From Antarctobacter heliothermus (lineage in GTDB: Bacteria > Pseudomonadota > Alphaproteobacteria > Rhodobacterales > Rhodobacteraceae), in assembly GCF_002237555.1 (NCBI RefSeq), contig NZ_CP022540.1, forward strand, positions 2,364,501 to 2,428,500: a stretch of 64,000 nucleotides of DNA. The letters are read 5' to 3'. A program made the translations under genes and the position numbers. Numbering within the stretch: the stretch's first letter is position 1; each line of letters opens with the position of its first letter. Shown piece after piece: positions 40,826-57,315 of this stretch. The notes beneath the pieces are model-generated. The model ran no database searches, was not told the origin of the DNA, and saw only the letters and a list, made by a program, of their open reading frames with translations.

Positions 40826-40902
40826 GGGGCAGGCCCCCGTGGTGCCGGCATAGTCTTCCTCCCGAGACGTGCTGGTGGGGTCCGCTTGCATGACGGCCCA
40901 TT

Positions 40903-40912
40903 TGGTATACCA
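40903..40912. promoter_or_regulatory. TGGTATACCA palindrome (site 1), divergent promoter
   Basis: A perfect 10-bp palindrome in the 214-bp gap between the LysE-type operon (leftward) and the HIBADH-family gene (rightward). The same core recurs at 45390, 57177 and 57235, each time at a promoter of this island, including the GntR gene itself. GntR/FCD operators of this type (T-GGTATACC-A) are established for some family members; here the binding is inferred. Confidence 0.6.
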
Positions 40913-41039
40913 TCTACACTCAAAACCAGCCGGGGCGGGAAGTCAACGGCGTGCGGGGGAGGCTGACGCCACTCGTGGCTATGAGCCACATCGCCCCGCC
41001 CACTGTCCCTCCTTTGGCGCGCAACAGGGGAGGTCGCGC

Positions 41040-41963
41040 ATGTCTAGCAAGGTCAAGGTGGGGTTCATTGGTGTGGGGCTGATGGGCCACGGGATGGCGA
41101 AGAACCTGTTGGAAAAAGGGCATCCGCTGGTGGTCAAGGGAAACCGCAACCGTGCACCGGTTGACGATCTGCTGGCGCGCGGCGCGACAGAGGTGTCGAC
41201 CCCGCGCGAGATGGCGGCGAACAGCGATGTCATCCACATTTGTCTGTCCAACGCGCCGCAGGTCGAAAGCGTCTTTCGCGGCCCCGACGGTATTCTTAAG
41301 GGGATGCGCGACGGTCTGATCGTGGTGGACTGCTCGACCTCCGATCCCAACGTGACACTGGCCTTGGCCGCGGAACTGGCCGAGCGCGGTGGACACATGG
41401 TGGATGCCCCGCTGGGCCGCACACCGAAAGAGGCCGAGGCAGGCACGCTGGACGCGATGGTCGGCGCAGACACAGAAGTTTTCCAGCGCATCTTGCCGGT
41501 GATGGAATGCTGGGCGGGCAACATCAACCACGTCGGCCCGGTCGGCGCGGGCCACAAGATGAAGCTGATCATGAACACCATCGCCATGAGCTATGCGGCC
41601 TTGTATTCCGAGGTGACGGCGCTGGGTGCCAAGGTGGGCATTCCGCCGGCAACGATCCAGCGGGTGATCGGGTCGTCTCGTCTGGGCAACGGGTTCTTCG
41701 ACACCTTCATGAGCTACGCGGTGGACCGGGACCGGGACGCGCATAAATTCTCGATCGCCAATGCATCCAAGGACGTGCGCTATGCGCTGGCCATGGCGGC
41801 AGAGGCGGGGGCGCTGTCACCCATGGCCTCTGCCACGCGGCAGTATTTCGCACAGGTCGAGGCGCAGGGCTTTGCCGAGGACTATGTCCCTTTCCTGTCT
41901 GATCATGTGGCGCGGATGAACGGGCTTGATCTGGAAGAAGAGGCCAAAAAAGGTCGCGACTAG
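41040..41963 (+). CDS. HIBADH-family NAD(P)-dependent reductase (2-hydroxy-3-oxopropionate reductase-like)
   Basis: Beta-hydroxyacid dehydrogenase of 307 residues: Rossmann motif GFIGVGLMGHGMAKNLL, the substrate motif VVDCSTSDPN, the glycine-rich block MVDAPLGRTPKEAEAGTLDAM, catalytic Lys in GAGHKMKLIMNT, and the C-terminal helix block FSIANASKDVRYA. Members reduce tartronate semialdehyde or oxidise 3-hydroxyisobutyrate and similar acids. ATG at 41040 follows GGGGAGGTCGCGC. Its stop overlaps the convergent LacI gene by 4 bp. Together with sugar-acid dehydratases and dehydrogenases it suggests handling of a 3-carbon semialdehyde. Confidence 0.86.
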   Translation: MSSKVKVGFIGVGLMGHGMAKNLLEKGHPLVVKGNRNRAPVDDLLARGATEVSTPREMAANSDVIHICLSNAPQVESVFRGPDGILKGMRDGLIVVDCSTSDPNVTLALAAELAERGGHMVDAPLGRTPKEAEAGTLDAMVGADTEVFQRILPVMECWAGNINHVGPVGAGHKMKLIMNTIAMSYAALYSEVTALGAKVGIPPATIQRVIGSSRLGNGFFDTFMSYAVDRDRDAHKFSIANASKDVRYALAMAAEAGALSPMASATRQYFAQVEAQGFAEDYVPFLSDHVARMNGLDLEEEAKKGRD

Positions 41964-42970
41964 CCAGTCGCCCGCCGCACCAGAGTATAGCCAAGGTCGA
42001 TGATCCGGTCGGCCAGCGGCTCTCCGGCGGTGGCCGCCAGCGTCAGGCGGGCGGCCTCGCGTCCGATGGCCTCTCCGTCGATGCGGATGGTGGTCAGCGC
42101 AAGGCCAGCGTCCCCCGCCACGTCGATATCGCCAAAGCCAGTGATCGCCAACGCGCCCGGCACGTCCAGCCCGCGCCGCATCGCCTCACACCATGCACCG
42201 ACGGCCAACCCGTCGCTAACGCAGATCACCGCATCGGTATCGGGCCAGCAGGCCAGGGCCTGCGCCAAACCCCGCGCGCCAAAATCCGGCCCGCTCTGGC
42301 TGTCATCCGCAGGCAGGGACAGAATGCGCGGCTCCAACCCATCCAATGCGCCGCAATAGCCTGCTTCGCGCAGATCGGCGCGGGTGTCGTTGGCATTGGC
42401 GACCCGCAAAAAGACCGGATGCTTGCGGCCCGCGTCGATCAGGTGGCGTGTCATGTCGCGCCCCGCCGCCCGGTTTGAAAATCCCACGGCGGCAAAAATC
42501 GGATCGTCGGGCAACTCCCAAAGCTCGATCACCGGCAGGCCAGCGTTTCCCAGCAATCGCCGGGTCTGCGGTGTGTGGTCGGTGCTGGTTAGAACCAGCG
42601 CATCGGGGCGGCGCCCCAGCAGGGTCGAGACCATGCGCGCCTCCTTGTCCGGGGCATAGCGTGTGCTGCCCAACAACAGTTGCAGGCCTCCTGCGCTCAA
42701 CCCTTCTTCCAGCCCGCGGATCGTGGTGGCAAAGACCGGACGATCCAACGTCGACACCAGCGCCCCCACCACGCGTGAGCGCTGTGACGACAGGGCCCCT
42801 GCAGTTTCGTCCCGAACATAGCCCAACGCGTCCACGGCCTTTTGCACCTTGGCAAGCGTATCCGGGCTGACCTTGGCAGGTGTGCGCAAGGCCCGGCTGA
42901 CGGTGATCTTGCCCACCCCGGCTGCGCGGGCCACATCCCCCATCGTCACCCATTTTCGCGGATCGCTCAT
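41960..42970 (-). CDS. LacI-family transcriptional regulator, GntR(gluconate)-like
   Basis: A 336-residue LacI-type repressor: HTH VTMGDVARAAGVGKITVSRALRTP, hinge helix, and a sugar-binding periplasmic-like domain (VVGALVSTLDRPVFA, LVLTSTDHTPQTRR, DAVICVSDGLAVGAW). The subfamily with KITVSRALR is common for gluconate or sugar-acid regulators. ATG at 42970 follows GGGGGCATC. Two operator-like palindromes lie 30-70 bp upstream, shared with the divergent PhyH gene. It probably represses itself and that dioxygenase. Confidence 0.9.
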   Translation of the reverse strand: MSDPRKWVTMGDVARAAGVGKITVSRALRTPAKVSPDTLAKVQKAVDALGYVRDETAGALSSQRSRVVGALVSTLDRPVFATTIRGLEEGLSAGGLQLLLGSTRYAPDKEARMVSTLLGRRPDALVLTSTDHTPQTRRLLGNAGLPVIELWELPDDPIFAAVGFSNRAAGRDMTRHLIDAGRKHPVFLRVANANDTRADLREAGYCGALDGLEPRILSLPADDSQSGPDFGARGLAQALACWPDTDAVICVSDGLAVGAWCEAMRRGLDVPGALAITGFGDIDVAGDAGLALTTIRIDGEAIGREAARLTLAATAGEPLADRIIDLGYTLVRRATG

Positions 42971-43001
42971 GATGCCCCCTTTGACAGGTGCCAGAATGCC
43001 G

Positions 43002-43039
43002 TGGTATCGATGCCATGGAAAGCATGGTATCGATACCAT
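43002..43039 (+). promoter_or_regulatory. Tandem LacI operators in the lacI-phyH gap
   Basis: TGGTATCGATGCCA (43002-43015) and the perfect 16-bp palindrome ATGGTATCGATACCAT (43024-43039) lie 23-24 bp apart centre to centre, just upstream of the dioxygenase gene. TTGACA at 42981 could be the -35 box of its promoter, placing the first operator over the -10. The central CG is characteristic of LacI-family operators. It is similar to, but distinct from, TGGTATACCA of the GntR sites. Confidence 0.7.
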
Positions 43040-43059
43040 AAAGCGGGAGGAAATTACAG

Positions 43060-43950
43060 ATGCTCAGCCAGAAACAACGGGAATTTTACGAAACAAATGG
43101 CTATCTGAAGGTCGAACAGGTTGTGACGCCATCAGAACTGGACGAATTGCAGGCGGTGACAGACCAATTGATCGACGAGTCGCGGCAGGTGACGCAAAGC
43201 AACGAGGTCTACGATCTGGACCGTGGCCACGCCCCCCAAGATCCGCGCCTGACCCGGATCAAACTGCCGCACAAACGGCATGCGATTTACGACCGGATCT
43301 TGAAACAATCAAAAGTGACCGAGGTGCTGACCGATCTGTTGGGGCCGAATACCTTTCTCAATACCTCCAAGCTGAACACCAAGGCACCAGGCGGCGGGGC
43401 AGCTGTGGAATGGCATCAGGATTGGGCGTTCTACCCGGCCACCAATGACTCGCTGCTGGCCTTTGGCCTGATGCTGCGGGATGTCACTCCGGACAATGGC
43501 CCGCTGTTGGTAATCCCCGGTTCGCACAAAGGGCCGGTGCTAAGCCACCATGCGTCCGGCGTGTTTTGCGGCGCGGTCAACCCAGAGGACCCGCAGTTCG
43601 AACGCGACAAGGCGGTGACCCTGACCGGACGCGCCGGGGATATGACAGTACATCATGTCCGCACCCTGCACGGATCGGCTCCCAATGTGTCGGACCGGGC
43701 GCGGCAAATCCTGTTCTACGAATGCGCCAGCGCAGACGCCTGGCCACTGTTGGGGGCGTCAAGCTATATCCACTCGCTAGGGCAGCGGATGTTCTGGGAG
43801 GACTTGCAAGACCGCATGATCACCGGCACGCCATGCCTGCAACCGCGCCTTGCGCAGGTGCCGGTGCGGATGCCGCTGCCACCTGCGCCGGACAACAGTT
43901 CCATCTTCAAAACGCAGGAAAGCGGCGGGGCCAAAAGCGCCTTCGCCTGA
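43060..43950 (+). CDS. Phytanoyl-CoA dioxygenase-family protein (Fe/2-oxoglutarate)
   Basis: A 296-residue PhyH-family oxygenase. It begins KQREFYETNGYLKVEQVV, has the iron ligands His-x-Asp in EWHQDWAFYP and distal His in VRTLHGSAPN, with Arg nearby in DRARQILFYE for 2-oxoglutarate. Such enzymes hydroxylate or demethylate varied small molecules; the substrate here is unknown. GAGGAAATTACAG precedes the ATG. It is divergent from the LacI gene with two operators between, and a second PhyH gene lies at 52.5 kb. It converges on the RraA-like gene with paired intergenic repeats between. Confidence 0.85.
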   Translation: MLSQKQREFYETNGYLKVEQVVTPSELDELQAVTDQLIDESRQVTQSNEVYDLDRGHAPQDPRLTRIKLPHKRHAIYDRILKQSKVTEVLTDLLGPNTFLNTSKLNTKAPGGGAAVEWHQDWAFYPATNDSLLAFGLMLRDVTPDNGPLLVIPGSHKGPVLSHHASGVFCGAVNPEDPQFERDKAVTLTGRAGDMTVHHVRTLHGSAPNVSDRARQILFYECASADAWPLLGASSYIHSLGQRMFWEDLQDRMITGTPCLQPRLAQVPVRMPLPPAPDNSSIFKTQESGGAKSAFA

Positions 43951-43964
43951 TTTCGAGCAGGGAA

Positions 43965-44098
43965 AGGGGCGCTGCCCCTCTGCGCTGCGCGCATTCACCC
44001 CGGGATATTTCAAGACAGAAGAAGCCACTCCCCTGCGTTTCTTCTGTCCTGAAATATCCCGGGGGAGTCGACCGAAGGAAGACGGGGGCAGCGCCCCC
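43965..44098. repeat. Inverted pair of the CCCGGGATATTTC intergenic repeat
   Basis: Between the convergent genes lie two oppositely oriented copies of one element. The left copy has a GGGGC-GCT-GCCCC hairpin (43965-43979) and CCCCGGGATATTTC then GACAGAAGAAG (43998-44024). The right copy is the mirror: CTTCTGTCCTGAAATATC with CCGGGGG (44038-44065) and GGGGGC-AGC-GCCCCC (44084-44098). Together they could fold into one long imperfect hairpin and act as a two-way terminator for both genes. The same element recurs at 47.3, 52.5 and 60.7 kb. Confidence 0.8.
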
Positions 44099-44102
44099 TT
44101 GT

Positions 44103-44801
44103 TTACCCGACCTCCACCGCGCTGCCATCGGCCAGCATGGCCTCAATGTCCATGGGCGTGCGGAAACCGTCCTTGACCTTGGCTTCTAGCTCGGCCTCCA
44201 GCCGGGCGACGTCTTCGAGCTTGCTGATCACCGTGTCGATCTGGGCGAAGGGGATCACCACCACGCCGTTTCGGTCGGCAACAATCATGTCGCCCGTGGC
44301 CACATGACGCCCGCCCACATTTGCCGAACCGCCCAGCGTGCCGGGGCCCGAAACGCAAGGAGAGTTCGGGTTCAGGCCGGTACACCAAGACGGAAGGCCA
44401 GCGGCGACAATGCCTTCGTAGTCGCGCATCGGCCCGTCGGTGACAAAGCCCGCAGCGCCCGCATTCTTGAGCATCCCTGACAACTGGTCACCGATTGTGG
44501 CGCCGCCCTGATACCCGTGGCCCGCGTGGACCAGAACGTCGCCCGGGGTCAGCAAGTTGACCGCTGCCAGCGTTGCGATGATGTCGCCGGGCCCACTGTC
44601 GGCGACCAGGGCGGGTCCGGCGACAGCGCAGTCAAGGTCCCGGCCAAACCCCAGTGGTGCGATGTTTGTGTCCATCGCGCCAAGTCCGCCCATCGCGTCG
44701 CAAAGAAAGGCGGTTTCTACCCCCTGAAAGGCGGCGATCTGTTCGGGGGTCGGGCGCGGCGCGCCTTTGATCAGTGTCAGCTTGGGCGGTTCTTCGATCA
44801 T
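44103..44801 (-). CDS. RraA-like protein, 4-hydroxy-4-methyl-2-oxoglutarate aldolase family
   Basis: A 232-residue member of the RraA/HMG-aldolase family: AFLCDAMGGLGAMDTNI, NLLTPGDVLVHAGHGYQGGATIGD, and the metal/pyruvate-binding RD motif in GFVTDGPMRDYEGI, followed by GLPSWCTGL. Many family members are class II pyruvate aldolases that cleave 4-hydroxy-2-oxo acids to pyruvate and an aldehyde or acid. In this island it could be the aldolase for a dehydratase product, since no Eda or KDG aldolase is seen. ATG at 44801 follows GGAGGAC. It overlaps the upstream exported-protein gene by 4 bp. Confidence 0.83.
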   Translation of the reverse strand: MIEEPPKLTLIKGAPRPTPEQIAAFQGVETAFLCDAMGGLGAMDTNIAPLGFGRDLDCAVAGPALVADSGPGDIIATLAAVNLLTPGDVLVHAGHGYQGGATIGDQLSGMLKNAGAAGFVTDGPMRDYEGIVAAGLPSWCTGLNPNSPCVSGPGTLGGSANVGGRHVATGDMIVADRNGVVVIPFAQIDTVISKLEDVARLEAELEAKVKDGFRTPMDIEAMLADGSAVEVG

Positions 44802-45316
44802 GGTTGGTTGTCCTCCGGGGTGATCGGGTCGGGGTCGGGCAGCCGCCAAAGCAGACGGATATAGGCCAGTCCCGACGCGGTGGCGGTGCAGCGGCTTTTC
44901 TGTGTGCGGATCTCTTCGGCGGGGATGTCGCGCAGGATGGCCAGTTCCTCCATCCGGTCGCACTGCACCAGAGAGGACAGGAGATCGTACTTCAATTCGA
45001 TCCCGGCCAGTGCGGCAATACGGTCTGGTGCGGCTTTGCTCAGGTGGTCCATGCGCGCCGCGATGGCAGCGGACCATTGAGCGCGGGCGTCCTCAAAGCA
45101 AAGGGTCGCCACCGCCGGAGTTTCTGTCGTGCCTTGCATACAGGCGGCATGAGCGGCATCGACGCAGCCGGTTGGCTTCGTGCCCAGGTCGATGGCTGTT
45201 GAAATGCAGGCGCGTACCGCATCGAGGTCCAGCGGGTCTTCGGCTTTGGCGGGTGTTGTGCAGGTCAAGACCAGCGCCAGTGACGCCGCGCCGCGTGCGG
45301 CGGGGGTCCATACCAT
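44798..45316 (-). CDS. Exported Cys-containing protein of unknown function
   Basis: A 172-residue protein with signal peptide (WTPAARGAASLALVLTCTTPAKA). The mature part has five spaced Cys residues (VRACISTAID, PTGCVDAAHAACMQG, TLCFEDARAQW, QCDRMEELAIL, SRCTATASG) in a helical, Ala-rich background, partly like lysozyme-inhibitor LprI/DUF1311 proteins; the match is uncertain. GGGAGGAAACATC precedes the ATG. Its stop overlaps the RraA-like start, so it is translated with it, which is unusual for an exported protein. The gene starts 73 bp from TGGTATACCA site 2. Confidence 0.65.
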   Translation of the reverse strand: MVWTPAARGAASLALVLTCTTPAKAEDPLDLDAVRACISTAIDLGTKPTGCVDAAHAACMQGTTETPAVATLCFEDARAQWSAAIAARMDHLSKAAPDRIAALAGIELKYDLLSSLVQCDRMEELAILRDIPAEEIRTQKSRCTATASGLAYIRLLWRLPDPDPITPEDNQP

Positions 45317-45388
45317 GATGTTTCCTCCCGGGGCAGGGCGTTCTATGTCCTTGCCGTCTTTTGCGCTCTCGTGCGAGGTTGCTTGCAA

Positions 45389-45400
45389 TTGGTATACCAA
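45389..45400. promoter_or_regulatory. TTGGTATACCAA palindrome (site 2), divergent promoter
   Basis: A perfect 12-bp palindrome at the middle of the 150-bp gap between the exported-protein/RraA operon (leftward) and the IlvD/Edd-family dehydratase operon (rightward). Same core as sites 1, 3 and 4. Its position, 72 and 66 bp from the two start codons, fits control of both promoters. Confidence 0.65.
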
Positions 45401-45466
45401 ATTGAAATGCTCGCACAAGAGTTGAGACCCGTCAGAATCGGTGGGTGCCAGAGGGGGAGAATGGTC

Positions 45467-47248
45467 ATGTCCGATACCCGCGCCAACAAGCGCTTTCGCT
45501 CACAAGAGTGGTTCGACAACCCGAACAACCCAGGGATGACCGCGCTTTACGTTGAACGGTATCAGAACAGCACGTTCACCCGCGAGGAATTGCAGGGTGA
45601 ACGGCCCATCATCGGCATCGCCAACACCGGAAGTGATCTGGCCCCCTGCAACAAGATCCATGTCTTTCTGATGGACCGGATCAAGGCGGGCATCCGTGAG
45701 GCGGGTGGCGTGCCGATGGAATTTCCCGTGCATCCGATTCAGGAAACCGGCAAGCGGCCGACCGCAGCGCTGGACCGTAACCTTGCCTATCTGTCGTTGG
45801 TCGAGGTGCTGCACGGCTATCCGATCGACGGGGTGGTGCTGACGACGGGATGTGACAAGACCACGCCTGCCATGCTGATGGGGGCGGCCACGGTGGACCT
45901 GCCGGCCATCGCACTGAACGGTGGTCCGATGCTGGACGGCTGGTGGCAGGGTAAACGCGCCGGGTCCGGCACCATCGTCTGGGAAAGCCGCCGCCTGCTG
46001 GCTGAGGGCAAGATCGACTATGAGGAATTCATGGCGCGGGTCTGTTCATCGGCTCCGTCTCTGGGCCATTGCAATACAATGGGTACCGCCAGCACTATGA
46101 ACGCCATGGCAGAGGCGCTGGGCATGTCCCTGACCGGCAACAGCGCGATCCCCGCGCCCTTCCGAGAGCGGATGGCCATGGCCTATGAGACCGGCCAACG
46201 GATTGTCGAGATGGTTCACGAGGATCTGAAACCCTCGGATATTCTGACCCGCGAGGCGTTCGAGAACGCCATCGTGGTGAACACCGCAATCGGCGGCTCG
46301 ACCAATGCGCCTCCCCATCTGCAGGCGGTGGCCCGTCATGCCGGGGTTGATCTGCACGTCAAGGACTGGGAGACGGTTGGCTTTGACGTGCCGCTGCTGG
46401 TCAACATGCAGCCAGCGGGCGAATATCTGGGCGAAAGCTTTTTCCGCGCGGGCGGGGTGCCTGCGGTTATGGGCGAATTGATGAGTGCGGGGCGTCTGCA
46501 CGTTAAGGCGATGACGGCCACGGGCAACACTATGGGCGCCAACCTTGCCGGGGTCGATAGTCTGGATACGGATGTGATCCGCCGCTACGACGCGCCGATG
46601 CGCGAAAAGGCGGGGTTCAAGGTGCTGTCCGGCAATCTGTTTGACAGCGCCTTGATGAAAACCAGCGTGATCTCACCGGATTTCCGAGCGCGTTTCCTGT
46701 CGACGCCGGGTCAGGAGGGGATCTTCGAGGCCAAAGCCGTGGTGTTTGAGGGACCGGAAGATTACCACGACCGGATCAACGATGCGTCGCTGGATATCGA
46801 TGAAAAGACCATCCTGTTCATTCGTGGCGTGGGGTGCGTGGGCTATCCCGGCTCTGCCGAGGTGGTGAACATGCAGCCGCCGGACGCGCTGATCCGCGCT
46901 GGGATCAATCACCTTCCGACTGTGGGAGACGGACGGCAATCGGGCACGTCGGAGTCGCCGTCGATCCTGAACGCCTCCCCGGAGTCGGTGGTGGGCGGCG
47001 GACTGGCGCATCTGAAGACCGGCGACCGGGTGCGGCTGGACCTGACTGCGGGACGTCTGGACGCCCAAGTGGACGATGACGTATGGCAGGCCCGTATTGA
47101 CGCTTGGGAAGCACCGGAAATCGTTCATCAGACGCCGTGGGAAGAGATCTATCGCACGCATGTGGGGCAGTTGGCCGAGGGCGGCTGTCTGGAGCTGGCC
47201 ACTGCCTATCAGCGGATTGCCAAGGATCTGCCGCGCGACAATCACTGA
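45467..47248 (+). CDS. IlvD/Edd-family sugar-acid dehydratase
   Basis: Fe-S dehydratase of 593 residues. The cluster ligands are in NTGSDLAPCNKIH, LTTGCDKTTPAMLMGA and SLGHCNTMGTASTMNAMAEALG; C-terminal GVGCVGYPGSAEVVNMQPP and GDGRQSGTSESPSILNASPE are also conserved. The subgroup is that of L-arabinonate/D-xylonate-type dehydratases rather than IlvD itself, so it likely removes water from an aldonic acid to give a 2-keto-3-deoxy acid. ATG at 45467 has GGGGGAG 7 bases upstream; 45461 is too close. First gene of a rightward operon with an SDR; GntR site 2 lies upstream. Confidence 0.9.
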   Translation: MSDTRANKRFRSQEWFDNPNNPGMTALYVERYQNSTFTREELQGERPIIGIANTGSDLAPCNKIHVFLMDRIKAGIREAGGVPMEFPVHPIQETGKRPTAALDRNLAYLSLVEVLHGYPIDGVVLTTGCDKTTPAMLMGAATVDLPAIALNGGPMLDGWWQGKRAGSGTIVWESRRLLAEGKIDYEEFMARVCSSAPSLGHCNTMGTASTMNAMAEALGMSLTGNSAIPAPFRERMAMAYETGQRIVEMVHEDLKPSDILTREAFENAIVVNTAIGGSTNAPPHLQAVARHAGVDLHVKDWETVGFDVPLLVNMQPAGEYLGESFFRAGGVPAVMGELMSAGRLHVKAMTATGNTMGANLAGVDSLDTDVIRRYDAPMREKAGFKVLSGNLFDSALMKTSVISPDFRARFLSTPGQEGIFEAKAVVFEGPEDYHDRINDASLDIDEKTILFIRGVGCVGYPGSAEVVNMQPPDALIRAGINHLPTVGDGRQSGTSESPSILNASPESVVGGGLAHLKTGDRVRLDLTAGRLDAQVDDDVWQARIDAWEAPEIVHQTPWEEIYRTHVGQLAEGGCLELATAYQRIAKDLPRDNH

Positions 47249-47271
47249 GGGATGCGGGAGGTGAGGTTCGA

Positions 47272-47328
47272 GGGGGGCGCTGCCCCCCGCCTTCGGCACC
47301 CCCCGGGATATTTTCGGACAGAAGAAAA
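47272..47328. repeat. CCCGGGATATTTC intergenic repeat, copy between dehydratase and SDR
   Basis: Hairpin GGGGGGC-GCT-GCCCCCC (47272-47288), a short GC-rich spacer, then CCCCCCGGGATATTTTC and GGACAGAAGAAAA (47299-47328). It lies in the 93-bp gap between two co-directional genes, directly before the AAGGAGG of the SDR, so it can modulate expression inside an operon. Confidence 0.8.
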
Positions 47329-47341
47329 CCAAGGAGGGCAA

Positions 47342-48079
47342 ATGTCCAAAACGATAATCATTACCGGGGGCGCGCGCGGGATCGGCAAGGCTTGTGCGGA
47401 GGTTTTTCTGGATGCGGGTTGGCGCGTCGGGATTGTGGGCCGGACAGCGGACACTGTGCAGGATATGGCCGACCGTCATGAGAACGCGCTCGCGCTGCCC
47501 TGTGATGTTGTAGATGAGGCGGGGGTGGATGCCGCCTTTGACAAGGCTGTGGCCGAGTGGGGGCGGATCGATGCGCTGTTCAATAATGCCGGTGTATCGG
47601 TATTGGGGGGAACGATTGACGAGACCTCTGTCGCGGATTTCCGGCGGGCGATCGACATCAACCTGACCGGCTCTTTTATTTGCGCACAGGCGGCTTTTGC
47701 CCGGATGCGGGCGCAGGACCCACAGGGGGGCCGGATCATCAACAATGGGTCGGTGTCGGCCCATGTGCCGCGCTGGGGGTCGACCCCTTATACGTCGTCG
47801 AAACACGCGATCACCGGGTTGACGCGGTCGATTTCTCTGGACGGGCGGCCATATGGGATTGCTTGTGGGCAGATCGACATCGGTAACACGCTGACCGACA
47901 TGGCCGAGAGGATGACCAAGGGTGTGCCGCAGGCGGATGGCTCCATCGCGGTGGAGCCGGTGATGGATGTGTCGAATGTCGCGTCCAGCGTGTTGCACAT
48001 GGCGTCGCTTCCGCTGGATGCGAACGTGCAGTTCATGACCGTTATGGCGACGACGATGCCCTTTATCGGGCGCGGGTGA
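47342..48079 (+). CDS. SDR-family oxidoreductase
   Basis: Short-chain dehydrogenase, 245 residues: TGGARGIG, NNAGVS, Ser in NGSVSAH, catalytic TPYTSSKHAITG. The segment CGQIDIGNTLTDMAERMTKG after the usual PG turn is changed (AC GQID instead of PG), seen in a subgroup of uncharacterised SDRs. AAGGAGGGCAA precedes the ATG. It follows the dehydratase after the intergenic repeat and converges on the EamA-type transporter with a 7-bp gap. It probably acts on the dehydratase substrate or product. Confidence 0.87.
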   Translation: MSKTIIITGGARGIGKACAEVFLDAGWRVGIVGRTADTVQDMADRHENALALPCDVVDEAGVDAAFDKAVAEWGRIDALFNNAGVSVLGGTIDETSVADFRRAIDINLTGSFICAQAAFARMRAQDPQGGRIINNGSVSAHVPRWGSTPYTSSKHAITGLTRSISLDGRPYGIACGQIDIGNTLTDMAERMTKGVPQADGSIAVEPVMDVSNVASSVLHMASLPLDANVQFMTVMATTMPFIGRG

Positions 48080-48086
48080 ACCGAGG

Positions 48087-48998: not shown

Positions 48999-49155
48999 GG
49001 GGGCTACTTGCGCCGCCGACAACGTGGCGTCAATGGGGTGTCCACGCGTGGACAGGTTTCAGGGTATGTAAAATCAATGAGTTACAGGGACGATTTTACG
49101 AAGTATTAGGACTTGCGTCGGGCGGCGGAGGCCCGCCCTCGCCGCGCGGGGCGCG

Positions 49156-49878
49156 TCAGCCAGTGGCCCAGCCGCCGTCGATCACATGCGCCTGGCCGGT
49201 GGTAAAGGCGGCCTCATCAGAGCCCAGATAGACCGCCAGATGGGCGATTTCCTGCGGCGTGCCGATGCGGCCCATGGGCTGACGCGCGTTGAAGGCCTGT
49301 AGCGCGGCCTCGTAGTCGCCCATCGCGCGCAGGCGGTCATGCAGAGAGGGGCTGTCGACGGTGCCGGGGCAGATACAGTTCACCCGGATGCCTTTGGTCA
49401 CATAATCCAGCGCCACGGATTTGGTCAGGCCGATCACCGCCGCCTTGGACGCGCCGTAGATGCAGCGGTTCGGCGCGGCGACGATGCTGCCCGCGATGCT
49501 GGCGATATTGACGATGGACCCGCCGCCGCGATTGATCATGCCGGGCAGGGCCGCCTGCATGGTGTGAAACTGCGAGCGGACATTCAGCGTCATGGCAAAG
49601 TCAAAGTCATCGTCCGTCGCGTCCAGCAGCGCCCCCGCATGAACAAACCCGGCGCAGTTCACGAGGATGTCCGGGGCGGCGGCCTCTACCGCGCGGGTCA
49701 GCGCGGGTTTGTCGGTCACGTCCAGCGCAAAACTGGTGCCCAGAAGACCCTGCAACAGGTCGGCATTCAGGTCCGTAGCGGTCACATCCGCGCCCTCGCG
49801 GGCATAGGCCTCGGCGATGGCGCGGCCGATGCCCTGACCGGCGGCGGTGATGAAGGCGCGTTTGCCCGCAAGTCTCAT
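49156..49878 (-). CDS. SDR, 2-keto-3-deoxy-L-fuconate dehydrogenase-like (DHRS6/BDH2 group)
   Basis: Short-chain dehydrogenase, 240 residues: atypical cofactor loop TAAGQGIG, TATDLN after the second strand, ILVNCAGFVH, Ser in NIASIAG, catalytic RCIYGASKAAVIG and the block VRVNCICPGTVDSPSL. The T-AA-QGIG loop and NCAGFVHxG mark the DHRS6/2-keto-3-deoxy-L-fuconate dehydrogenase group. Those enzymes make a 2,4-diketo acid that an FAH-family hydrolase cleaves, and such a hydrolase gene lies at 58.0 kb. ATG overlaps the oxidoreductase stop by 4 bp; the gene ends the leftward operon 53.5 to 49.2 kb. Confidence 0.86.
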   Translation of the reverse strand: MRLAGKRAFITAAGQGIGRAIAEAYAREGADVTATDLNADLLQGLLGTSFALDVTDKPALTRAVEAAAPDILVNCAGFVHAGALLDATDDDFDFAMTLNVRSQFHTMQAALPGMINRGGGSIVNIASIAGSIVAAPNRCIYGASKAAVIGLTKSVALDYVTKGIRVNCICPGTVDSPSLHDRLRAMGDYEAALQAFNARQPMGRIGTPQEIAHLAVYLGSDEAAFTTGQAHVIDGGWATG

Positions 49879-50945
49879 GTCAGAACTCCTGTGAAATCGC
49901 CCGGCACCTCACCGCGTTTGACGGGGCGGTGGGTCTGGCCGGACAGGGCGGTGGCCAGTGTCATTTCCAGCGCGGCGAAACCGTTTTCGGGTCGGCAAAG
50001 AACGTCATCTGTAGCGCCGTCCAGAAGGGCGGCAAAGCGGTCGATCTGAGCGCGGATCGGGTCGATCTTGTCGAAATGTGGCCCCGGTGTTTGTGCCAGT
50101 GGTTTGGACCATTCGACCTCACCCGGCCCGCTTGCCCCCCAGAGGGTCAGCGAGGGGAAGGCCAGCGCGCCCAAAGTGCCGGTAAAGCGCAGGTAATCCT
50201 GATCCGATCCGGCGATCTCGGGGTTCTCTGCCGATGTCGCCTCGAACGACCAAGGGGAGGCTCCGGCATCCGACATCAGGAAAGAGCCAAGTGCGCCGTT
50301 TTCAAAGCGGAAGGCCAGTGCGGCTGTATCCTCGATCACCAAGCCGCGCGTGGCGGAGGAGGTGAGGGCCGTCACCTCTGTCGGGATGCCGGTCATAAAG
50401 CCCAGCAGGTCAATTTCGTGGCTGAGGTTGCTGGCCAGCGGTCCGGCACCCGGCAGACGACGCCACGGCACATCGTAGTAGGTGTCGTGTTTGCGCACCG
50501 ACCAAAAGCCCTGAAGGCCGACAAGCTGCCCGATGGCGGGCAGGGCGTCACGCATGGCCATTGCATAGGGATGACAGCGGCGGTGGTGACCGACGATGAG
50601 CGGCAGGCCAGCCGCCTCTGCGGCCTGCATCATGGCGCGGGCATTGTCGAGCGATTCAGCAAAGGGTTTTTCCACCAGCACCGCCCAGCCGCGCGACAGC
50701 GCAGCGAGGGTCGAGGGCAGGTGATCCGGTGTCGGCGTGGCGATCACGCAGGCGCGGGTTTCCTTTGGCACCTCGTCAAGACTGTCAACCACAGGCAGGC
50801 CCTGTCGCGCCAGTTTCGCACGGGTTTCGGCATGGGGTTCGACCACGGCGGTCAGGGTGATGTTGGGGGAGTCGATGGCGACCTCTATATGGCGGCGTCC
50901 GATGCTGCCTGCGCCGATTACGCAAAGGGGAAGGGGCGTTTTCAT
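49875..50945 (-). CDS. Gfo/Idh/MocA-family oxidoreductase
   Basis: NAD(P)-dependent sugar oxidoreductase, 356 residues: Rossmann motif CVIGAGSIGRRHIEV, the EKP motif in VLVEKPFAESLDNA, HHRRCHP and the SHEIDLLGFMTG block in the second domain. Members oxidise sugars or inositols, or act on sugar acids/lactones. ATG at 50945 overlaps the dehydratase stop (TGATG-type coupling). Operon with the UxaA-family dehydratase and the SDR, suggesting sequential steps: oxidation, dehydration, second oxidation. Confidence 0.88.
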   Translation of the reverse strand: MKTPLPLCVIGAGSIGRRHIEVAIDSPNITLTAVVEPHAETRAKLARQGLPVVDSLDEVPKETRACVIATPTPDHLPSTLAALSRGWAVLVEKPFAESLDNARAMMQAAEAAGLPLIVGHHRRCHPYAMAMRDALPAIGQLVGLQGFWSVRKHDTYYDVPWRRLPGAGPLASNLSHEIDLLGFMTGIPTEVTALTSSATRGLVIEDTAALAFRFENGALGSFLMSDAGASPWSFEATSAENPEIAGSDQDYLRFTGTLGALAFPSLTLWGASGPGEVEWSKPLAQTPGPHFDKIDPIRAQIDRFAALLDGATDDVLCRPENGFAALEMTLATALSGQTHRPVKRGEVPGDFTGVLT

Positions 50946-52441
50946 CACATCACCGCCCCGATTTGCCATGGTACAAATTCATAATCACCCAATCCCTGCA
51001 GTTCCGATTTGCTGTGTTCGCCAGAGGCCATGTGCAGCCACATCTCATAGATTTCGCGGCCCACTTCCTCAACCGAGCGGCCCTCTGTGAGGATGCTGCC
51101 CGCGTTGATGTCCATATCCTCTGTCATGCGATTGTACATCTGTGTGTTGGTGGCCACCTTCATCGAAGGGCTGGGTTTTGCGCCAAAGGCCGATCCGCGC
51201 CCGGTGGTGAAACAGACAAGGTTGCAGCCCGATGCGATCTGGCCTGTGACACTGGCCGGGTCGTAACCGGGGCTGTCCATGAAGGTAAACCCCTTGGCGG
51301 TGACAGGTTCGGCATATTTGTAGACGCCGGTCAGGGGCGTTGTGCCGCCTTTGGCCGCCGCGCCCAGCGATTTCTCAAGGATGGTGGTCAGCCCGCCCTT
51401 CTTGTTGCCCGGCGAGGGGTTGTTGTCCATGCTGCCCTTGTTGCGTTCTGTGTAATCCTCCCACCAGCGGATCAGGTCGATGAGTTTTTCACCGGTGGCG
51501 CGGTCCACGGCGCGGGCGGTCAGCAGGTGTTCGGCGCCGTAGATTTCCGGTGTTTCGGCAAGGACGCCGGTGCCGCCTTGCGCGACCAGCAGGTCACAGG
51601 CGTAGCCCACTGCCGGGTTGGCGGTGATGCCGGACCACGCGTCAGAGCCGCCACATTGCAGGGCCACCATCAGCTCTGATGCCGGGCATTCGGTGCGGGT
51701 GGATTGGTTGACCACGGGCAGCATCTTTTCAATCTTGGCGATGCCCAGTTCGATGGATTTGCGCAGCCCGCCCACGTCCTGAATGTTCATGCTCTGGAAC
51801 AGGGGGCCGGGTTTGAGGCCGTATGCCTCGACCAACCAGTCGATCTGGTTCATCTCACAGCCAAGGCCCGCCATCAGCACGCCGCCGACGTTGGGGTTGC
51901 GGGCATAGCCCCACATCACCCGTTGCAGCGCCTCAAACCCCTCAGACCCCTGTCCGGCCATGCCGCAGCCGGTGCCGTGGACAAAGGCGACCACGCCGTC
52001 GACATTGGGATAGTCGGCGAGTTTGTCATCGGTGAAATGGGCGGCGATCTTGCGCGCGGCGGTGGCGGAACAGTTCACCGATGTGAGGACGGCGATGTAG
52101 TTGCGGGTGCCGGTGCGGCCGGTGTCGCGGCGGTAGCCTTGAAAGGTGTCTTGGGTGGCGGCGGGGGCCACGGGGCGCAGGTTGGTGCCGAACTCATAGG
52201 CCGTGTCGACGTTGCGAAAATCCAGATTGTGGGTGTGGACATGGGCGCCGGGGGCGATGTCCTCTGCCGCGTAGCCGATGACTTGGGCGTATTTGATCAC
52301 CGGCGCGCCTTTGGGGATGGCGGTGGTGGCCAGCTTGTGCCCGCGCGGGATCAGTTGGGTGGCGCCCTCTTGCCCGATTTCAAGCGGGGTGACGGCGGTG
52401 ACGACATTGTCGGCGTCGGACAGGCGGACGGTGTTGGTCAT
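50945..52441 (-). CDS. UxaA-family dehydratase (altronate/galactarate type), SAF-fused
   Basis: A 498-residue dehydratase with the SAF domain at the N terminus (residues 10-90, HKLATTAIPKGAPVIKYAQVIG and HTHNLDF) and the large UxaA_2 domain after it: SVNCSATAARKIAAHF, HGTGCGMAGQGSEGFEALQRV, GLGCEMNQID, LQCGGSDAWSGITANPAVG and the C-terminal GCNLVCFTTGRGSAFG. The Cys residues are Fe ligands in this family. Altronate, galactarate and some deoxysugar acids are known substrates. The start at 52441 begins the SAF domain. Gene before the intergenic repeat and second PhyH gene. Confidence 0.88.
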   Translation of the reverse strand: MTNTVRLSDADNVVTAVTPLEIGQEGATQLIPRGHKLATTAIPKGAPVIKYAQVIGYAAEDIAPGAHVHTHNLDFRNVDTAYEFGTNLRPVAPAATQDTFQGYRRDTGRTGTRNYIAVLTSVNCSATAARKIAAHFTDDKLADYPNVDGVVAFVHGTGCGMAGQGSEGFEALQRVMWGYARNPNVGGVLMAGLGCEMNQIDWLVEAYGLKPGPLFQSMNIQDVGGLRKSIELGIAKIEKMLPVVNQSTRTECPASELMVALQCGGSDAWSGITANPAVGYACDLLVAQGGTGVLAETPEIYGAEHLLTARAVDRATGEKLIDLIRWWEDYTERNKGSMDNNPSPGNKKGGLTTILEKSLGAAAKGGTTPLTGVYKYAEPVTAKGFTFMDSPGYDPASVTGQIASGCNLVCFTTGRGSAFGAKPSPSMKVATNTQMYNRMTEDMDINAGSILTEGRSVEEVGREIYEMWLHMASGEHSKSELQGLGDYEFVPWQIGAVM

Positions 52442-52460
52442 TGTGAATCTCGGCTGTTGA

Positions 52461-52515
52461 GGGGGGCGCTGCCCCCCGCCTGCGGCCCCCCCGGGATATT
52501 TCAGGACAGAAGAAA
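52461..52515. repeat. CCCGGGATATTTC intergenic repeat, copy before uxaA-like gene
   Basis: Hairpin GGGGGGC-GCT-GCCCCCC (52461-52477), GC-rich spacer, then CCCCCCCGGGATATTTC and AGGACAGAAGAAA (52486-52515). It fills most of the 101-bp gap between the PhyH gene and the dehydratase gene, both read leftward, and is oriented against them. Confidence 0.8.
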
Positions 52516-52542
52516 CGGGGGCGCGCGGGCAGGATTGACGGG

Positions 52543-53493
52543 TCAGGCGCAGACCGGGCTGTCGGCGCTCCAGCGGTGGATCGGGATATGCGGCTGCTCT
52601 GACAGGCGCGCGCGGGTGTCTTGCCACATCGCCTGCCAGATGCGCCAGTCGCGCAGTTCGGTATCGGGGTTTGTGCGAGAGCGGGCGATGAAGTCGGGGA
52701 AATGTGACCGCCCTGTGGGCTGGCCGGTCACATTGAAGCGGATGTCAAAGCTCCACCGGAATTGGTCAGACTGGTTGGCGAGCGAGGCATGGGGTGTGAG
52801 CGGGTGGAACAGGACGGCGCCGCCTGCGCGGACGGGCAGGGGGCGGGCCTTTGTCTCATCCAGCAGGCCGGGGGCGATGGCGGTTTGTTTCTGCGGGCAA
52901 TGCGGATACATCTGGGGCTTGCCCGGTACGACCTGCAGGCAGCCGTTGTCGACCGTGGCGTCGGTGATCGCCAGCCAGACGGTCACCATCTGCGTGGCGT
53001 CGCCGGTTTCATGCGCGACGGCGCGGTCCTGATGCCAGTCGGTGGTGGTGACATGGGCGCGCAATTCGTCTGATTTCAGCGTTACGGCGGGCGGTTTCAG
53101 GCGGACGTGCTGGATCGGGTTCGAGGTCAGCTCTGCCCCGATGAGGTCCTCGACCATGTCCAGCAGGCGGGGGTTGGTCAGCATGTCAAAGACGGCAGGA
53201 CCAAAATGAAACGGTGTGTCGGCGGCAATGTCGCCGCCGGGCAGCGAGATGTCCATCGGCTGAAACCAGTCGCAGCCCGCCTTGTAGCTGGTCAGCAGCT
53301 TTTGCCAGAAATTGAGGCCGGTGCCGTCGGGCACAAGCCCCCGAGCCTGCCAGCGCGCGTAGAGCCGGTCGAGAAGGTCGCTGTATTCCGCCTTCACCGC
53401 GTCAAGCGTGGCGGTGTCCAGCACGTCGTCGATGACGAGGTAGCCTTGGGAATTGAAGTGGTCGATCTGGTCCGGGGTCAACATGCGAGGCAT
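52543..53493 (-). CDS. Phytanoyl-CoA dioxygenase-family protein (second copy)
   Basis: A 316-residue Fe/2-oxoglutarate oxygenase: TPDQIDHFNSQGYLVIDDVL, His-x-Asp in DWHQDRAVAH, distal His in VLFHPLTPHASLAN, Arg in QFRWSFDIRFN. It is only distantly similar to the PhyH protein at 43.1 kb. PhyH enzymes can oxidise small acids, methyl groups or sugar derivatives; the substrate is unknown. GGAGCTGTGTCC precedes the ATG at 53493; 53484 is an alternative. It lies between the TRAP genes and the dehydratase in one leftward run. Confidence 0.83.
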   Translation of the reverse strand: MPRMLTPDQIDHFNSQGYLVIDDVLDTATLDAVKAEYSDLLDRLYARWQARGLVPDGTGLNFWQKLLTSYKAGCDWFQPMDISLPGGDIAADTPFHFGPAVFDMLTNPRLLDMVEDLIGAELTSNPIQHVRLKPPAVTLKSDELRAHVTTTDWHQDRAVAHETGDATQMVTVWLAITDATVDNGCLQVVPGKPQMYPHCPQKQTAIAPGLLDETKARPLPVRAGGAVLFHPLTPHASLANQSDQFRWSFDIRFNVTGQPTGRSHFPDFIARSRTNPDTELRDWRIWQAMWQDTRARLSEQPHIPIHRWSADSPVCA

Positions 53494-53573
53494 GGACACA
53501 GCTCCGTCAAAGGGATTGTTGAGGCAGGAGAGGCCGGACCGAGGCGCACCCGGTCCGGCCAAGGATCATACCG

Positions 53574-55169
53574 TCACAGGAAGATCGTGACGATGGGCGG
53601 CCAAGCAAGCAGCACCGTCAGCGCCAACAGTTGCAGGGCGATGAAGGGCAGGAAACCGCGGAAGATGTCGGTCAGCGAGATATGCGCCGGGGCCACCGAT
53701 TTGAGGTAGAACGCCGCCGGGCCAAAGGGTGGTGACAGGAAACTGACCTGCATGTTCATACAGAACACCACGCCGAACCAGATCGGGACATAGCGCGCGT
53801 CGACGCTGCCCAGCCAGCCGATTTCCTCTGCCGGAAGGCGCACCACGATGGGCAGGAACACGGGCATGATCAGCAGCACGATGCCGACCCAGTCCATGAA
53901 CATCCCCATGATCAGGAACACCACCATCATCACAAGAATGATGCCCATGGTCGGCATGTCCGCGCCCACGATCAGGTTGGCCACATAGGTCGGCCCGCCT
54001 GCCAGCGTATAGGCCGCCGCAAGGGCCGCCGCACCGATGGTGACCCAGATGATCGTGCCGGTGGATTTCAGCGTGCGCAGGAGCGCGTCCCAGACAATCT
54101 CGAACGTCATCTCTCGGCGGATCATGCCGATGGTAAAGACCGCGACAACGCCCATGCCGGCCGCCTCTGTGATGCCGGTGATGCCGCCATAGATCGACCC
54201 GAGAACCACGCCGATCACGACAATGGGGGCGATCAGGCCATAGCCCATTTCCCAGCCCTTGGCGGTCCGTTCCATCCCGACGATGAAATACATGATCACA
54301 CCGAACAGAACAAAGGTGCCGATCAGCCACGGAATGTCCGCGACCATGCCAAGAAAGATCGGATCGACGCCTTCGGTGATCACGTTGTTGCCGGTCACGG
54401 TGAAGAACAGCGCCCGCAGCGTCAGAACCCCGGTGATCCACATGCCAAAGCGTGACACGAAGCCGAGGAACATTAGCCGCTTTTCATTGCCTTCGGGTGC
54501 GCCCGGTTCCTGCGGTGGCAGGGGGGCCTGATCCGGGTCAAGCTGGGTGCGTATGATGATGTAGACGATAAAGAAGGTCGCCAGCATGAAACCGGGCAGG
54601 AAGGACGCGGTGAACAGCGCCTTGATCGAGGTTTCTGTCACCAGCCCGTAGAAGATCAGCACGATCGACGGAGGGATCATGGTGCCAAGACTGCCCGAGG
54701 CGCAGATGGTGCCGATGGCAAGGTTCTGATTATAGCCCAGCCGCAGCATCTGGGGCAGGGCGATCAGGCCCAGCAGGACCACCTCACCGCCGATGATGCC
54801 GGACATGGCGGCCATGATGACGGCCATGATCGAGGTCACGATGGCGATGCCGCCACGGGTGCGCGACAGCCAGACGTTCAGCGACGAATACATGTCGCGC
54901 GCGATGCCCGATCGTTCCAGCAGCGCCGCCATGAAGATGAACAACGGTACTGATATCAGGACGTAATTGACCATCTGTCGATAGACCGCCTGACCCAGCA
55001 CGTTGAACGGCCCTTGGCCGAAGCTGCGGAACAGGATGTCGTCACCGAATTTCAGGTACAGCGTGACCACGGCCAGAAAGGCCGAGGCAAAGCCCAGCGG
55101 CATACCGATGGCCAGAAGCACGAACATCAGCAGTAGTACAACGAGGGAGAGTGTGCCGATGTCGACCAT
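53574..55169 (-). CDS. TRAP transporter large permease (DctM-like)
   Basis: A 531-residue membrane protein with about twelve helices. Signatures include LSLVVLLLMFVLLAIGMPLGFASAFLAV at the first helix, AIVTSIMAVIMAAMSGIIGGEVVLLGLIALPQML and CASGSLGTMIPPSIVLIFYG. It is larger than the usual 430-residue DctM because of a polar loop (residues 215-235, PPQEPGAPEGNEKR) and extra helices around 255-330. Imports a carboxylate or sugar acid with Na+. ATG overlaps the DctQ stop by 1 bp. Confidence 0.93.
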   Translation of the reverse strand: MVDIGTLSLVVLLLMFVLLAIGMPLGFASAFLAVVTLYLKFGDDILFRSFGQGPFNVLGQAVYRQMVNYVLISVPLFIFMAALLERSGIARDMYSSLNVWLSRTRGGIAIVTSIMAVIMAAMSGIIGGEVVLLGLIALPQMLRLGYNQNLAIGTICASGSLGTMIPPSIVLIFYGLVTETSIKALFTASFLPGFMLATFFIVYIIIRTQLDPDQAPLPPQEPGAPEGNEKRLMFLGFVSRFGMWITGVLTLRALFFTVTGNNVITEGVDPIFLGMVADIPWLIGTFVLFGVIMYFIVGMERTAKGWEMGYGLIAPIVVIGVVLGSIYGGITGITEAAGMGVVAVFTIGMIRREMTFEIVWDALLRTLKSTGTIIWVTIGAAALAAAYTLAGGPTYVANLIVGADMPTMGIILVMMVVFLIMGMFMDWVGIVLLIMPVFLPIVVRLPAEEIGWLGSVDARYVPIWFGVVFCMNMQVSFLSPPFGPAAFYLKSVAPAHISLTDIFRGFLPFIALQLLALTVLLAWPPIVTIFL

Positions 55170-55984
55170 CAGTTCTTGTCCACTTCCAGAGTTTTGCGGA
55201 TGTTCTCGATCTCTGTTTCGTCGATCTCATCGGCGGGATTGTGGTGTTCGGGGGCTTTGTTCCAGTCGGCGATCAGGTTTGACAGCGCCTGCAGCGCAAC
55301 CAGTACGACAATCACCAGAATGGCGGTTTTGACGGTGCCCGGAATGGGCGGATCCCATGCAGAGCCGTAACCTTCGAGGCGCAGAAGGCGGCGTTTCGCG
55401 TCCGCGTAGCCGCCCCAGACAAGGCAGAAGGCAAAGACCCAGATCAGCGAGACAGAAATCACATCAGACAGTTTTTGCATCCAGCGGGGCATCATGTCGT
55501 AGATCACATAGATGCGGATGTGGCTGCGCTGCTGCATGGCGTAGAGGCCGGCAAACAGAAAGACGATGGCCGCAATCCACAGCGACAGTTCGTTGGCCCA
55601 GAGGGTGCCACCGCTAAAGACGTAGCGGGCGACCACCTCATAGAACATCACCAGCACGATAAAGGTGATGCCGATCATCGACAGCCGACCCAGCACAAGG
55701 CTGAGGATGTCAAAGGGGCCGGTGCGTTCCACCTCGATCGTGCCGCGGATGTCCGAGGTAAAGATCGCGGCAAAGAGCAGTGCCAGCGCCAGGGTGGTCA
55801 TCATCAGAATGACGGTCATCCGGCCCTCTGGGCGGATCATTTCATGTACGCCAAGCGGTTCGTCGGTGATGAACAGGCTGAGGATCAGCCATGCGTAGAT
55901 CACCAGCGCCAGCGCGGTAAAGACGATCATGGCCCATCGCACGGGTGTTCTGAGTGGCCCCAGCCACACGCTTTCGGAATTCAT
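55169..55984 (-). CDS. TRAP transporter small permease (DctQ-like)
   Basis: A 271-residue small permease, longer than the usual 160-180. Four helices of the DctQ module lie after residue 110 (FIVLVMFYEVVARYVFSGGTLWANELSLWIA with conserved E and W) and two extra helices precede it (AMIVFTALALVIYAWLILSLF and ILMMTTLALALLFAAIF). The N-terminal extension also fits the large TRAP subfamily of the DctM partner. ATG at 55984 follows AAGGAGGCAGGGC. Membrane partner of the genes on both sides. Confidence 0.9.
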   Translation of the reverse strand: MNSESVWLGPLRTPVRWAMIVFTALALVIYAWLILSLFITDEPLGVHEMIRPEGRMTVILMMTTLALALLFAAIFTSDIRGTIEVERTGPFDILSLVLGRLSMIGITFIVLVMFYEVVARYVFSGGTLWANELSLWIAAIVFLFAGLYAMQQRSHIRIYVIYDMMPRWMQKLSDVISVSLIWVFAFCLVWGGYADAKRRLLRLEGYGSAWDPPIPGTVKTAILVIVVLVALQALSNLIADWNKAPEHHNPADEIDETEIENIRKTLEVDKN

Positions 55985-56100
55985 GCCCTGCCTCCTTGTT
56001 GTGATGGCCTTGTTTGTGGTCATGGCTTGCCTGCGAGACGAAAAGCGGGGGACCCTGTACAGAGTCCGCCGCTGTGTCACTCGTCCGTCAGATCAGGCGA

Positions 56101-57111
56101 TCAGTCGGCTAGAAGGCCAAGCTGGCCCAGGTAGGCGCGGTGGCTGGCGACAAGCGCGGCGGCCTCGGGCGTCTTTTCGGCCCAACGGTCCCACGCAACC
56201 TGCGCGGCCGCACGGAAGTCGGCGCGGTCCTTGGCGGACCATTCATGCAGCGTCACGCCTTTGGCGGTCAGCATGGCGGCGGCCTCTGCGTTCTTTTTCT
56301 CATTCGACAGTGCGGTGTGCAGGGCAAGTTTCTGCATGGCGGTGTCGATGATACGCTTGTGCTGGTCGCTCAACCCGTTCCAGACGTCGAGGTTACAGGC
56401 AAGGTGGTCCGACGGCATCGAGTGGAAGCCGGGGTAGGTGGCATGGTTGACGATGTCATACAGACCAAGGCCCACGTTGTTGTTCAGGCCCGATGCGTCA
56501 GCACCGTCGATGATGCCGGTTTCCAGCGCGGTAAAGATCTCGGTGAAGTCCATCACGATGGGCTGTGCGCCCAGTTCCTCGAAGATCTCGGTTTCCAGAC
56601 CCGGAGGCGAACGGAATTTCCAGCCTTTCAGATCCTCGGGACCGGCGAGCGGCTTGGACGAGGACAGCGATTCCTGACCATAGATCCACCAGCCAACCAG
56701 CTGCATGTTCTCGGCGTTGTAAAGTTCCTGCGCGGCGTCGTAGCCACCGCCGTAATACAGCCAGCTCAGCTGCTGCCAGGGGGTGTCGTAGCCGCCCATG
56801 ATGTCGCCGACAAACTGGAACGCCGGGTTCTTGCCGGTCTGGTAAGCGCCGCCGGTCATGTCGCAGTCGAGGATGCCGTTGATGGCTGCGTCAAAGGTTT
56901 CCGTCGTGGCGACGACGGACGAGCTGTAGAAGATCTCGATGTCGATTTCGCCACCGGACATGACCTCGATGTCATCGGCGAACTGGGCGGCAAGAATGCC
57001 TGACGGATGCTCGGTCGCATAGTGGGACTGGATGCGTAGGGTGACGTCCTGCGCGGTGGCCGCGGATGCGGCAATGGCAACGGCCGCAGCCGTCGTCAGA
57101 AGATTCTTCAT
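56101..57111 (-). CDS. TRAP transporter substrate-binding protein (DctP-like)
   Basis: Periplasmic binding protein of 336 residues: signal peptide to ATAQD, VTLRIQSHYATEHPSG, the DctP block LAGPEDLKGWKFRSPP with the conserved Arg that binds the carboxylate, and FTALETGIIDGADASGL. The ligand is most likely an organic or sugar acid. GGGAGGAACAC precedes the ATG. It is the first gene of the leftward TRAP operon; two GntR-type palindromes lie 66 and 124 bp upstream, so the operon is probably regulated by the adjacent GntR gene. Confidence 0.92.
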   Translation of the reverse strand: MKNLLTTAAAVAIAASAATAQDVTLRIQSHYATEHPSGILAAQFADDIEVMSGGEIDIEIFYSSSVVATTETFDAAINGILDCDMTGGAYQTGKNPAFQFVGDIMGGYDTPWQQLSWLYYGGGYDAAQELYNAENMQLVGWWIYGQESLSSSKPLAGPEDLKGWKFRSPPGLETEIFEELGAQPIVMDFTEIFTALETGIIDGADASGLNNNVGLGLYDIVNHATYPGFHSMPSDHLACNLDVWNGLSDQHKRIIDTAMQKLALHTALSNEKKNAEAAAMLTAKGVTLHEWSAKDRADFRAAAQVAWDRWAEKTPEAAALVASHRAYLGQLGLLAD

Positions 57112-57175
57112 GTGTTCCTCCCTGCGGCGGGCTCCCCCCCGCCTGTTTTCGCTTTGGGGGCTTGCCCCTACCGGA

Positions 57176-57246
57176 ATGGTATACCATCCAGTATTGGCAC
57201 GCTAACCAAAGCCTAGTGTACAGGCAAGGAATTTTGGTATACCAAA
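57176..57246. promoter_or_regulatory. Two TGGTATACCA palindromes (sites 3 and 4), divergent TRAP/gntR promoter
   Basis: ATGGTATACCAT (57176-57187) and TTTGGTATACCAAA (57233-57246), centres 58 bp apart, in the gap between the TRAP operon and the GntR gene. Site 4 is the longest dyad of the four. Two copies at this location and their absence outside the island (only four seen by eye) support autoregulation and control of uptake. Confidence 0.7.
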
Positions 57247-57315
57247 TCTCGGTCAAGCAAGGGTGCCTGTAGAGGCGCGAAAAAAAGGTGCGGATTCAGG
57301 GAGGTGGGCTGCGCC

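Follow-up and report, generated by a model that had tools for sequence, protein, structure and literature searches.

Does one regulator control the transport and catabolic island found in a 64-kb window of the Antarctobacter heliothermus genome (the whole stretch analysed, contig NZ_CP022540.1, positions 2,364,501 to 2,428,500), and if so, which protein reads its control sites? The island has three divergent promoter gaps, in which four copies of one 10-base palindrome, TGGTATACCA, are found, and it carries gntR, a frameshifted gene for a FadR/FCD-type regulator. On the sequence evidence assembled here, the four palindromes are very probably the operators of this adjacent FadR/FCD-subfamily GntR, which would act as a repressor of the island units.

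Four exact palindromes cluster in the island

An earlier note on this DNA had placed four sites with a common core in promoter gaps, and all four proved to be exact copies located where it had put them (Table 1); the wider palindromes at 45389-45400, 57176-57187 and 57233-57246 were verified as well. There is no fifth exact copy in the window, and the sole site with one mismatch, at 18123, lies within an open reading frame (ORF) of 884 amino acids. The motif is the most frequent exact 10-base palindrome in the window, where 57 distinct ones occur and the runner-up has three copies. Allowing up to two mismatches gives 13 window sites against 8.74 expected, a number reached by 11 of 100 shuffles; with no clear enrichment of this relaxed motif, it is the exact form that carries information.

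Across the genome (5,331,190 bases in four contigs) we find six exact copies, against one for a reversed control palindrome and about 2.3 predicted from base composition. Four of the six fall inside 16.3 kb, for which the chance expectation is 0.007 copies, and a scan-type bound puts the probability of such clustering at about 1.7e-6. Beyond the island there are two copies, as many as chance would give. The statement in the earlier note that the palindrome is absent from other promoters therefore stands for the exact motif within the window and fails for the whole genome.

Conservation in relatives

Two samples were not chosen for the presence of the site: five other genomes of the genus, including A. 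heliothermus DSM 11445 and Mameliella strains, and 21 distinct loci with a gntR homologue (L043-L049 were treated as distinct from the genomes with G numbers by their differing identities and spacings). Among the five genus relatives, the corresponding island sites are exact in 20 of 20 cases, with the site of the lysE/HIBADH gap exact at the orthologous gap in all five; conservation at orthologous promoters, which the earlier note had named as a check, is thus borne out. In the alignments the sites stand out from surroundings that for the most part have diverged. Of the 21 loci, 18 have one exact site or more ahead of gntR, and 15 have paired elements there with starts 55-58 bases apart; one of these elements, in G011, reads CGGTATACCA. 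We also observe an extra exact site about 4-6 kb past gntR, on the fah side, in G003, G004, G005 and L043; it has no counterpart in the window.

The adjacent GntR as the probable reader

The window gntR encodes a whole GntR helix-turn-helix domain (PF00392, 1e-16; Pfam), followed by an FCD match (1.8e-6) that covers only profile positions 4-54 of 125 owing to the frameshift. In two intact relatives the same domains score 1.4e-16 and 6.1e-15 for PF00392, and FCD extends over profile positions 4-124 and 3-124 of 125. Past the break, the DNA reads in another frame as an FCD-like continuation near the DSM 11445 protein, and the break is therefore recent or artefactual.

Operators of the FadR subfamily are described in PMC4494728 as palindromes built of TKGT/ACMA boxes, in which GT and AC lie 2-3 bases apart. 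The island site, TGGT-AT-ACCA, shares these boxes and, through its 2-base centre, fits the variant in which that distance is 2, and the predicted operators carry it, conserved, at all three promoter gaps. At the DNA-contact positions 27, 28 and 38 tabulated in that paper, the window protein carries E, R and R, as placed by eye.

The sites also follow the gene across genomes. In 37 genomes of the family, our own included, hits to TTGGTATACCA on both strands average 6.0 where a strong gntR homologue is present (14 genomes, E up to 3e-34) and 0.48 in the 23 without; outside the genus the mean is 4.9 (n=8) against the same 0.48. These observations carry the proposal of the earlier note that the sites form one regulon under one regulator, most likely the product of the gntR gene at 57.3 kb: relatives have the sites fixed at the same promoters, the sites co-occur with gntR, and some relatives retain them in an island without a LacI gene.

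Several points weigh against this assignment. The 37 genomes are related and the comparison is uncorrected for relatedness, so that its test values are only indicative, and G034, which has no gntR homologue, has three hits. G028, the most distant genome at 48% identity, has the dehydratase site and none at gntR, and L047 and L048 are without a site directly before gntR, which there follows a short-chain dehydrogenase/reductase (SDR) gene; L047 has GGGTATACCA ahead of that SDR gene. In the assembly, a frameshift near 57.71 kb costs gntR most of the FCD sensor domain, while intact copies are present in relatives. Lastly, the genome scan at one mismatch that the earlier note had proposed shows no enrichment, with 45 sites (39 of them non-exact) against 89 for the control, just as forms with two mismatches are not clearly enriched in the window.

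It is improbable, though the best of the alternatives, that a paralogous FCD regulator reads the sites or shares them with GntR. ExuR and UxuR are said to share sites in E. coli, and a second match to the gntR query, 37% identical, lies at C1:1408726 in this genome; the poor flanks of the site before ilvD, discussed below, would leave room for another reader there. However, the stretch around this paralogue (L108) has no profile hit of at least 7, and the sites before gntR track gntR across genomes.

Less likely again is a role for the LacI-family protein encoded inside the island, whose gene accompanies the sites in all five genus relatives. The sites are retained in G007, G029 and G032, in which HIBADH and PhyH1 are adjacent and the stretch fetched shows no LacI hit, LacI elsewhere not having been sought, and for this reason the island LacI is a poor candidate; moreover, paired sites precede gntR, and the motif is of the FadR-subfamily type. 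As for an ordinary palindrome that happened to fall in promoters, the number of copies outside the island and the lack of enrichment of relaxed forms would suit it, but the clustering bound speaks against it and the conservation across genomes refutes it for the four island sites, and we consider it negligible.

Placement on promoter-like elements and proposed mechanism

The four sites lie on or beside promoter-like elements, and a conserved element of this kind carries the site for three of the six units that could be controlled: lysE, dehydratase and dctP. At dctP, all 15 genomes examined have the pattern TTG[CA][CT]T-17-TA[GC]C[GT]T, and O2 lies immediately upstream of its -35 hexamer; O1 follows the -10 hexamer by 9-12 bases in 14 of them, and G030 is without O1. 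(This promoter was read in 15 of 17 aligned genomes, G011 and G031 being left out.) At the dehydratase, TTGC precedes the site by exactly 7 bases in 12 of 14 aligned genomes, and the site occupies the spacer to a weak -10 hexamer. At lysE, TTGAC[AT]-17-hexamer is followed 4-9 bases on by the site in 10 of 11 aligned genomes; the script misread the -35 hexamer of G001 in this reading. The sets of 14 and 11 genomes were picked because the site is present.

These operator positions fit repression; lying as they do on conserved promoter-like elements, the sites point to an autoregulated repressor. GntR binding, repression over activation, and the nature of the effector are what we infer from sequence. 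A GntR dimer would bind TGGT-AT-ACCA, with A/T-rich flanks preferred, and would repress three units, those of lysE, the dehydratase-SDR pair and the TRAP transporter, and probably also gntR-fah, to which its own gene belongs. Repression would end once the FCD domain is occupied by an intermediate of the pathway, probably a sugar acid. The two operators of the gntR gap may also be joined by looping.

The gene order of the dctPQM unit is preserved in genus relatives. Pfam, NCBIfam and PDB searches did not settle the substrate of the island. Its ILVD/EDD dehydratase exceeds the PRK13017 and PRK06131 subfamily cut-offs (NCBIfam), and the best NCBIfam match of fah, 2,4-didehydro-3-deoxy-L-rhamnonate hydrolase, is under its cut-off (398.7 of 500 bits). 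On the RraA side, the dehydratase gap also has a short ORF, which the earlier note called an exported protein.

Table 1. Features of the island in window coordinates. Unit limits are predicted from strand and spacing, and hexamer positions are putative.
Feature	Position	Strand	Remarks
lysE-like, glcD-like and pfkB-like genes	37910..40891	-	probable unit; Pfam
Putative operator, lysE(-)/HIBADH(+) gap	40903..40912		exact TGGTATACCA; 5 bases behind lysE -10-like hexamer
Promoter-like element, lysE	40918..40946	-	-35 TTGACT (40946-40941), 17-base spacer, -10 TTGAGT (40923-40918)
HIBADH-type dehydrogenase	41040..41963	+	start 127 bases from first operator; control from HIBADH side presumed
LacI-family gene	41960..43039		inside island
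RraA-like gene	44103..45077	-	Pfam RraA-like; other side of dehydratase gap; control of RraA side presumed
Promoter-like element, dehydratase	45383..45411	+	-35 TTGCAA (45383-45388), -10 AATGCT (45406-45411)
Putative operator before ILVD/EDD dehydratase	45390..45399		exact; within -35/-10 spacer; extended form AATTGGTATACCAAATT
ILVD/EDD-family dehydratase and SDR	45467..48079	+	probable unit; Pfam, NCBIfam
dctP-dctQ-dctM TRAP transporter, PhyH-family, galactarate/altronate-type dehydratase, MocA-type oxidoreductase, SDR	49156..57111	-	probable single unit; Pfam
Putative operator O1, dctP(-)/gntR(+) gap	57177..57186		exact; 12 bases behind dctP -10-like hexamer
Promoter-like element, dctP	57199..57227	-	-35 TTGCCT (57227-57222), 17-base spacer, -10 TAGCGT (57204-57199); bracketed by O1 and O2
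Putative operator O2, dctP/gntR gap	57235..57244		exact; 7 bases upstream of dctP -35-like hexamer; start 58 bases from O1
gntR, FadR/FCD-type regulator, frameshifted	57304..57885	+	remnant continues to about 57989 in another frame
fah, FAA-hydrolase family	58038..58883	+	probably co-transcribed with gntR

Sites outside the island

Sites beyond the island were scored against a profile built from 54 exact sites of relatives, which had been picked for carrying the site, with scores of at least 7 listed; all 39 one-mismatch sites lie in stretches scored in this way. The dehydratase operator at 45390 ranks first among the sites of its own genome scored against this profile (33.1).

Of the two exact copies elsewhere in the genome, one, C1:1323858 (L002), has its core about 80 bases ahead of the start of canonical ilvD, the only one of nine genomic ILVD/EDD-family matches that is over the PRK00911 dihydroxy-acid dehydratase cut-off (818.8 bits, NCBIfam). 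The core is exact in five of six genus genomes (our own, G001, G002, G003 and G005) and decayed in G004; it was not seen in G029 or G030, and G007 has no match to the query. The DNA upstream of the site can hardly be aligned, an argument for constraint on the site itself. Its flanks score poorly against the profile (19.4 in all for our own site, 6.5 to 10.2 in relatives), and the strength or the owner of the site is for that reason uncertain.

A one-mismatch site, C1:4239939 (L147:7940-7949), precedes an aminotransferase/D-2-hydroxyacid-dehydrogenase pair. It has the top score among the one-mismatch sites (18.4) and is exact in five of five genus relatives; the part of the aminotransferase set from outside the genus was chosen for carrying the site. 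The distance from this site to gntR is 25-28 kb in G002, G003 and G005 and 1.8 Mb here, and in G001 and G004 the two are on different contigs. In the same gap, about 80-110 bases to the right of the site, a block ATTGTTTAC..GGAAAC is present in all six genus genomes and may belong to another regulator. Further one-mismatch sites score 13.7 to 15.5 in L140, L014, L133 and L012.

Two candidates were set aside. TAGTATACCA, before another ILVD/EDD paralogue (C1:2547828), has a profile score below 7. The remaining exact copy, C1:961214, before a gene for a LuxR-type response regulator, is exact only in G001 among the five genus relatives, three having AGGTATACCA and one CGGTATACCA in its place, and is probably due to chance or to overlap with a promoter. 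Ahead of the same response regulator gene, a palindrome CTAAGACCTTAG is conserved in the six genus genomes (L001:1420-1620).

The earlier note had also taken the sites to define the pathway boundary, and this does not hold, given the conserved exact site before ilvD and the genus-conserved site at the aminotransferase operon. A wider regulon is possible, though we regard it as doubtful: the genus may have taken in the biosynthetic ilvD (valine/isoleucine) and the aminotransferase/D-2-hydroxyacid-dehydrogenase operon, and this strain may just have lost the sensor half of its regulator, leaving a DNA-binding stub with intact operators.

Comparison with known systems

The nearest likeness is to E. 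coli UxuR, a GntR-family regulator of the FadR subfamily (hexuronate catabolism), which likewise consists of GntR and FCD domains, has TGGT-N2-ACCA sites of the same architecture in the gntP-uxuA and uxuB-uxuR gaps of MG1655, and also governs a sugar-acid pathway through its genes for uptake and for dehydratases. The differences are in the site centres, which in the uxu stretch are TGGTCAACCA, TGGTTAACCA and TGGTTGACCA, and in the gene set, since the island has a TRAP transporter. With 26% identity between UxuR and the DSM 11445 orthologue (pairwise BLASTP) and another operator centre, orthology to UxuR is not indicated. An ExuR/UxuR consensus with a GGTATACC core is absent from two 9-kb MG1655 stretches (uxu; uxa/exu), and no mention of GGTATACC together with GntR was found in the literature searched. 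Nor was the exact TGGTATACCA operator met there with the island gene set, the supplementary site lists of PMC4494728 excepted, and the available portion of PMC12842492 gives no operator sequence. In the PDB, the nearest solved sequence to the N-terminal 134 amino acids of the DSM 11445 orthologue is 6z74 (GntR family transcriptional regulator; E 2.2e-13), which is distant from it.

Significance

What we describe is a conserved regulon of a well-known type of regulator, and thus an ordinary kind of gene switch; what is new is the gene set and the possible link to ilvD rather than the mechanism. Through this analysis, an island for transport and catabolism in marine Rhodobacterales gains a probable regulator with an operator and a set of target units, which narrows the hunt for the substrate of the island and for the effector. 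Conservation of the site before ilvD suggests a tie from the island pathway to branched-chain amino-acid synthesis, and if the wider regulon is true, a catabolic island would be tied to amino-acid metabolism.

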